The notes beneath the pieces are model-generated. The model worked only from the letters and a program-made list of their open reading frames with translations, did not search any database and had not been told where the DNA came from. Positions 12,807-24,355 of a stretch of DNA of 64,000 nucleotides are shown piece after piece. A program made the position numbers and the translations under genes. The stretch's first letter is position 1. Each line of letters begins with the position of its first letter. The stretch lies in contig CM049404.1 in the NCBI GenBank assembly GCA_026929865.2, forward strand, positions 28,641,001-28,705,000, in the 5' to 3' direction. The stretch is from Hyperoplus lanceolatus. Lineage: Eukaryota > Chordata > Actinopteri > Uranoscopiformes > Ammodytidae.

Positions 12807-24355
<11,549 letters not shown>

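Follow-up and report, generated by a model that had tools for sequence, protein, structure and literature searches.

Hyperoplus lanceolatus very probably possesses the N1 microexon of src. The window, which is the whole 64,000-nt stretch of contig CM049404.1 that was analyzed, contains a src gene, and the segment at 15048–15065 is best read as the orthologous N1 microexon of this gene, one that would be skipped in most cells, included in neurons, and able to weaken the grip of the SH3 domain. Direct support for this reading comes from the sequence and phase of the segment, from its intact host gene, from how seldom such a segment arises by chance, and from a second src gene, which has an independent cassette of N1 type that encodes KKYSFR. 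To the extent that sequence alone can tell, 15048–15065 is a real exon, of a kind that is already known.

The microexon and its host gene

The src gene in the window has a complete coding region of 11 exons on the plus strand. Without the microexon, these exons give an open frame of 538 aa with the C-terminus YQPGENL, and the protein contains SH3, SH2, and kinase domains. Coding exon 1 (12807–13062) encodes SH4 and the unique region. The first half of SH3 is encoded by coding exon 3 (13525–13624, 100 nt), which is followed by the donor gtaagg, and the second half by coding exon 4 (16213–16311, 99 nt). The other exons, for SH2, the kinase, and the tail YQPGENL, are at 18223–18326, 19911–20060, 20578–20733, 21369–21548, 22058–22134, 22417–22570, 23064–23195, and 24147–24355. 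The donor after exon 23064–23195 is GC (CAG/gcaagg, at 23196–23197), which makes this a GC-AG intron.

The identity of the gene was explored against PDB. For the SH3 domain with the insert, the top bit scores among the best 60 of 303 matches were 103 for Src, 90.8 for Fyn, and 87.9 for Yes. In the full-length match, over 453 residues, Src chains scored up to 959 bits and Fgr 762; the Fyn chains there are kinase fragments only, and no Yes chain is among the matches listed.

The intron between 13624 and 16213 is 2588 nt long and contains the N1-type 18-nt microexon, GCGGAAGATTAACTGCAG, on the plus strand. It is preceded by ttttatag and followed by the donor gtttgt (15066–15071; CAG/GTTTGT), so that it has AG/GT flanks. 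The upstream SH3 exon ends with AAC AAC AC/gtaagg at 13624, and the downstream one starts with ag/A GAG GGC GAC TGG TGG at 16213. The microexon is in phase 2. In the spliced translation, the SH3 junction reads T-E without it and T-RKINCR-E with it, and the frame is kept, so that it adds RKINCR in the n-Src loop. An earlier note had pointed to an 18-nt, phase-compatible segment with AG/GT borders at the SH3 split, and the coordinates, borders, and splice frame bear it out.

Several of the features that identify an N1 exon can be found in this segment. Its host is src, it is in the intron between the SH3 exons, and it has the appropriate phase and AG/GT borders. Its 18 nt encode six residues, and N1 inserts are described as having 5 or 6 aa (PMC5577857). 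The ends of the insert are basic (RK...R). An acidic residue is typical of N1 without defining it, and neither RKINCR nor KKYSFR contains D or E. With RKINCR inserted, the score for Pfam SH3_1 drops from 66.1 to 53.1 bits, which is expected of a loop insert. When PDB was searched with the RKVDVR insert, three alignments skipped the insert, and the coordinates of 46 of the 51 rows imply a six-residue gap. In the other five rows (4omm, 7a31, 7a38, 7a34, and 7pw0), the alignment has no gap and begins within the insert, at query residue 10 or 11.

A second src gene and the signals for splicing

The genome was covered for src copies over 807 Mb in 527 contigs, with 146 of 226 candidates scored, and at least two src copies are present. 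The second, intact-looking, is on the minus strand of contig C2 (C2:11743600-11753500). It is identical to the window gene at 246 of 258 residues over six exons, and at 321 of 339 from exon 3 to exon 10. Its last exon, translated on its own, also ends with YQPGENL. The five other Src-family genes, named yes- or fyn-like from their SH3 sequences, have an identity of 0.73–0.82 to window src over 66 to 257 comparable residues.

The SH3 intron of C2 src (1840 nt) contains an in-phase 18-nt cassette, GAAAAAGTACAGCTTCAG, at C2:11748825-11748842, which encodes KKYSFR. It has a pyrimidine-rich acceptor and the donor gtcagt. The insert itself is weakly conserved: RKINCR and KKYSFR have 2 of 6 residues and 10 of 18 nt in common, whereas the SH3 exons have 63 of 65 residues in common. 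A 159-nt TG array (3455–3613 on the reverse strand of the C2 src region) stops some 14 nt short of SH3 exon 3, at the expected position of the pyrimidine tract, and the intron in which it lies has no CA array of at least 16 nt.

The two src genes are an old pair, as 83 of 146 four-fold sites differ between them from exon 3 to exon 10 (JC 1.06). The yes-like and fyn-like genes are also paired, with 64/66 and 61/66 identical residues over the two SH3 exons. The four-fold divergence and this pairing suggest that the src pair came from the teleost genome duplication. Shared synteny was considered as further support and was set aside. What we take to be a MICAL-like gene is next to window src, at 33738–33950, with candidate exons continuing as far as about 56000 (a FAD-binding motif, and a LIM-like exon near 47000). 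Its FAD exon has four other copies in the genome, two on C6 and one each on C1 and C22; none of these paralogues is on C2. Elsewhere in the window, both strands of 2096–3342 carry frames that are presumably pieces of Tc1/mariner transposase.

Both src genes carry a possible PTB signal. An 11-nt word, TTTCTCTCTCA, at 15014–15024 on the plus strand contains CUCUCU, a PTB-type site; the word starts at -34 and CUCUCU is at -31. The same word is found upstream of the C2 cassette, starting at -31, with CUCUCU at -28. A common word of this length in the two flanks was reached in 6 of 2000 shuffles. In mammals, PTBP1 is reported to bind CUCUCU upstream and downstream of N1 and thereby prevent inclusion (PMC12136456).

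Other signals are less like those of mammals, where Rbfox1/2 are reported to require a downstream UGCAUG to activate N1 (PMC3126832). No UGCAUG is within 250 nt on either side of either src microexon, which argues against the control of the fish microexons being a simple copy of the mammalian. All five UGCAUG of the window src intron (13705–14496) precede the microexon, the reverse of the mammalian placement. The plus strand of the whole window contains 30, compared with about 16 for uniform bases. The excess is thus partly regional, and no role is claimed for the intron sites. Srrm4 binds at UGC, a triplet that C2 src has at -20, whereas window src has none upstream that is closer than -86.

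The window microexon is flanked by repeats. A (GT)44 array (15087–15174, plus strand) starts 22 nt past its last base, and a CA array (14149–14215) could be the partner of (GT)44 in a 67-bp RNA duplex around the microexon. In the predicted fold of the intron, the arrays pair fully, with 67 of 67 CA bases in a duplex of -138.4 kcal/mol. A fish class of AC/GT introns was defined by Lin et al., as described in PMC7404189. Looping-out of the microexon by these repeats remains an idea only. Pure CA/TG arrays of at least 24 nt number 23 in the window, which makes a pair within a 2.6-kb intron unsurprising, and the C2 SH3 intron has no CA/GT array pair.

The strengths of the two sets of signals bear on whether the window copy (C10) is a decaying relic that is rarely or never spliced in, with N1 function kept by C2 src since the gene duplication. 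Pyrimidines make up 0.60 of positions -23 to -4 of the window microexon, the lowest value among 11 acceptors and one that exon 8 shares, and this weak tract is joined by a GTTTGT donor. The C2 cassette has the better tract (15/20 by hand count), the donor GTCAGT, and the UGC at -20. However, the window donor has 7 of 9 consensus matches, which is average, and the window copy is still in frame and exactly 18 nt long, with both splice dinucleotides, the Arg-Lys...Arg pattern, and the CUCUCU word upstream, all within an intact host gene. In addition, zebrafish src, described as having no close paralogue, is reported to retain its microexon (PMC12626424), and it may correspond to either the C10 or the C2 copy. 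A relic is therefore improbable, and the preferred reading continues to be an N1 microexon in use.

Chance expectation

There are a number of AG-18 nt-GT stretches in the DNA. Six are present in the 2588-nt intron, five of them open in frame, and 434 in the whole window on both strands (224 + 210, open or not), so one of them at 15048–15065 could in principle be a matter of chance. The insert pattern makes this very unlikely. The only open cassette with an RK start and an R end, both in the intron and in the whole window, is 15048–15065. In 2000 dinucleotide shuffles of the intron, the number per shuffled copy was 0.0005 for open RK...R cassettes and 0.013 for R....R cassettes.

A looser rule, an open 18-nt cassette with two basic residues first and Arg last, gives one match in each src intron and was matched in 1 of 1000 shuffles for window src and likewise for C2 src. 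This rule was fixed once both src cassettes were known, which means that the C2 value of 1 in 1000 does not come from a blind test; the five control introns were scanned later. These are the SH3 introns of the other Src-family genes (yes-like and fyn-like) of the same genome, and none of the five has a matching cassette, with 15-nt cassettes also scanned and a final Ser allowed for the two fyn-like introns. Shuffles of the five met the rule at 2, 2, 0, 24, and 18 per 1000, the last two being long introns. The matching cassette in C2 src and the empty control introns argue against chance, as does the description of N1-Src in other fish (PMC5577857, PMC12626424).

Least probable of all is that a donor within (GT)44 is used to produce a microexon of 39 nt or more, comparable in length to mammalian N2 inserts: a 39-nt open cassette does end at the first GT of the array, but the average donor of the 18-nt microexon yields the known exon length, the array offers many poor donors and has no such counterpart in the C2 SH3 intron, and N2-Src is reported in mammals only (PMC5577857, PMC4509517) or in amniotes (PMC12369926).

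Known N1-Src systems and possible function

The N1 microexon proposed here can be compared with those of other vertebrates. The mammalian and chick insert is RKVDVR (PMC5318895, PMC13297096). It is alike in having six residues in the same SH3 loop, with Arg-Lys first and Arg last, and unlike in having VDV where Hyperoplus lanceolatus has INC, which lacks an acid and contains a Cys. The earlier note had described just this, with Arg-Lys and the final Arg kept, INC in place of VDV, and the acidic residue gone, and it was correct against the RKVDVR given in PMC5318895. The Xenopus n1-src primers (printed in PMC5577857 and PMC12369926) translate by hand to RPDMR, of 15 nt. That insert is at the same junction and has Arg at both ends, whereas it has five residues, no Lys, and a retained Asp. 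N2-Src also has its insert in this loop, with 17 residues (N1 plus N2) as opposed to six here.

Two fish systems are alike by description. N1-Src was reported in Xiphophorus brain by Raulf et al. (1989), as cited in PMC5577857, and it is a teleost src with a six-residue brain insert, as is probable here. The zebrafish src microexon is conserved and neural, as the exons for RKINCR and KKYSFR may be too. It is 1 of 21 microexons chosen on criteria that include neural inclusion and regulation by srrm3/4, and its deletion alters neurite length (PMC12626424). Zebrafish src is described there as having no close paralogue, whereas Hyperoplus lanceolatus has two src genes.

The earlier note had presented the segment as a fish N1 exon with an altered middle. 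The reading as an N1-Src exon of a fish has good support from its position, length, and phase, from the pattern of the insert, and from the independent C2 counterpart. Its novelty is reduced, as fish N1 exons are already on record (PMC5577857, citing the 1989 work on Xiphophorus; PMC12626424, with the zebrafish deletion line of 2025) and the insert middle already varies among vertebrates. Across RKVDVR, RPDMR, RKINCR, and KKYSFR, the ends are basic throughout and the middle varies. With RPDMR in the frog, a diverged middle is nothing unusual. Less usual is that both src copies of Hyperoplus lanceolatus have inserts without an acidic residue. The charge distribution of the insert is said to be conserved to fish (PMC4509517, PMC5577857), and if this is literally true of Xiphophorus, Hyperoplus lanceolatus would be unusual. 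RKINCR as this insert, KKYSFR, and RPDMR were not found in the literature text searched, a scope outside which are Fig. 1A of PMC5577857, where fish inserts are aligned, and Raulf et al. (1989).

How the microexon is used can be inferred by analogy with these systems, and this applies to its splicing-in, its neuronal inclusion, its control by PTB and Srrm3/4, and its biochemical effect. In most cells, it would be skipped, with 13624 joined to 16213, and ordinary c-Src would be produced. In neurons, it would most likely be included, which would put RKINCR at the n-Src loop tip, after T and before E. Inclusion could come about by relief from PTB at CUCUCU and by activation through Srrm3/4, as in zebrafish. 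The insert would then be expected to loosen the binding of SH3 to ligands and to the SH2-kinase linker and to raise basal kinase activity, as in mammalian and frog N1-Src. The SH3 of N-Src is inferred to bind the SH2-kinase linker more weakly (PMC4509517). The earlier note suggested that the insert could alter ligand choice in fish neurons, which is a possibility only. An interactome from 2025 describes the known N1-Src SH3 as binding a subset of C-Src ligands less tightly, with no new ligands, and the kinase as more active (PMC12369926). The aspartate of the insert is predicted to coordinate a basic residue of an RxPxxTxK ligand (PMC5318895). Asp is absent from RKINCR, and thus this contact, if present in mammals, cannot work alike here.

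The src pair with diverged inserts is the more interesting part of the finding than a fish N1 exon with an altered middle. It seems to be new that two src copies carry diverged inserts, neither of them with the aspartate. The literature text that was searched yielded no report of two src copies in teleosts; SrcA and SrcB there denote kinase subfamilies. We tentatively suggest, as a possibility that is far from assured, that the N1 switch outlasted an old duplication in both copies and that their inserts then diverged, to RKINCR with a Cys and KKYSFR with a Tyr, while the SH3 exons stayed nearly identical. Hyperoplus lanceolatus might then have two neuronal Src SH3 variants without the ligand-contact aspartate, one of which has in its ligand-facing loop a tyrosine, possibly a phosphorylation target of the kinase itself.

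The way in which the six residues of N1 act on Src is under debate. Where a species has two src genes, the effect of deleting one microexon may be hidden by the other copy. The two natural inserts of Hyperoplus lanceolatus, with basic ends and no acidic residue, would provide a direct test of the aspartate against loop length and charge.
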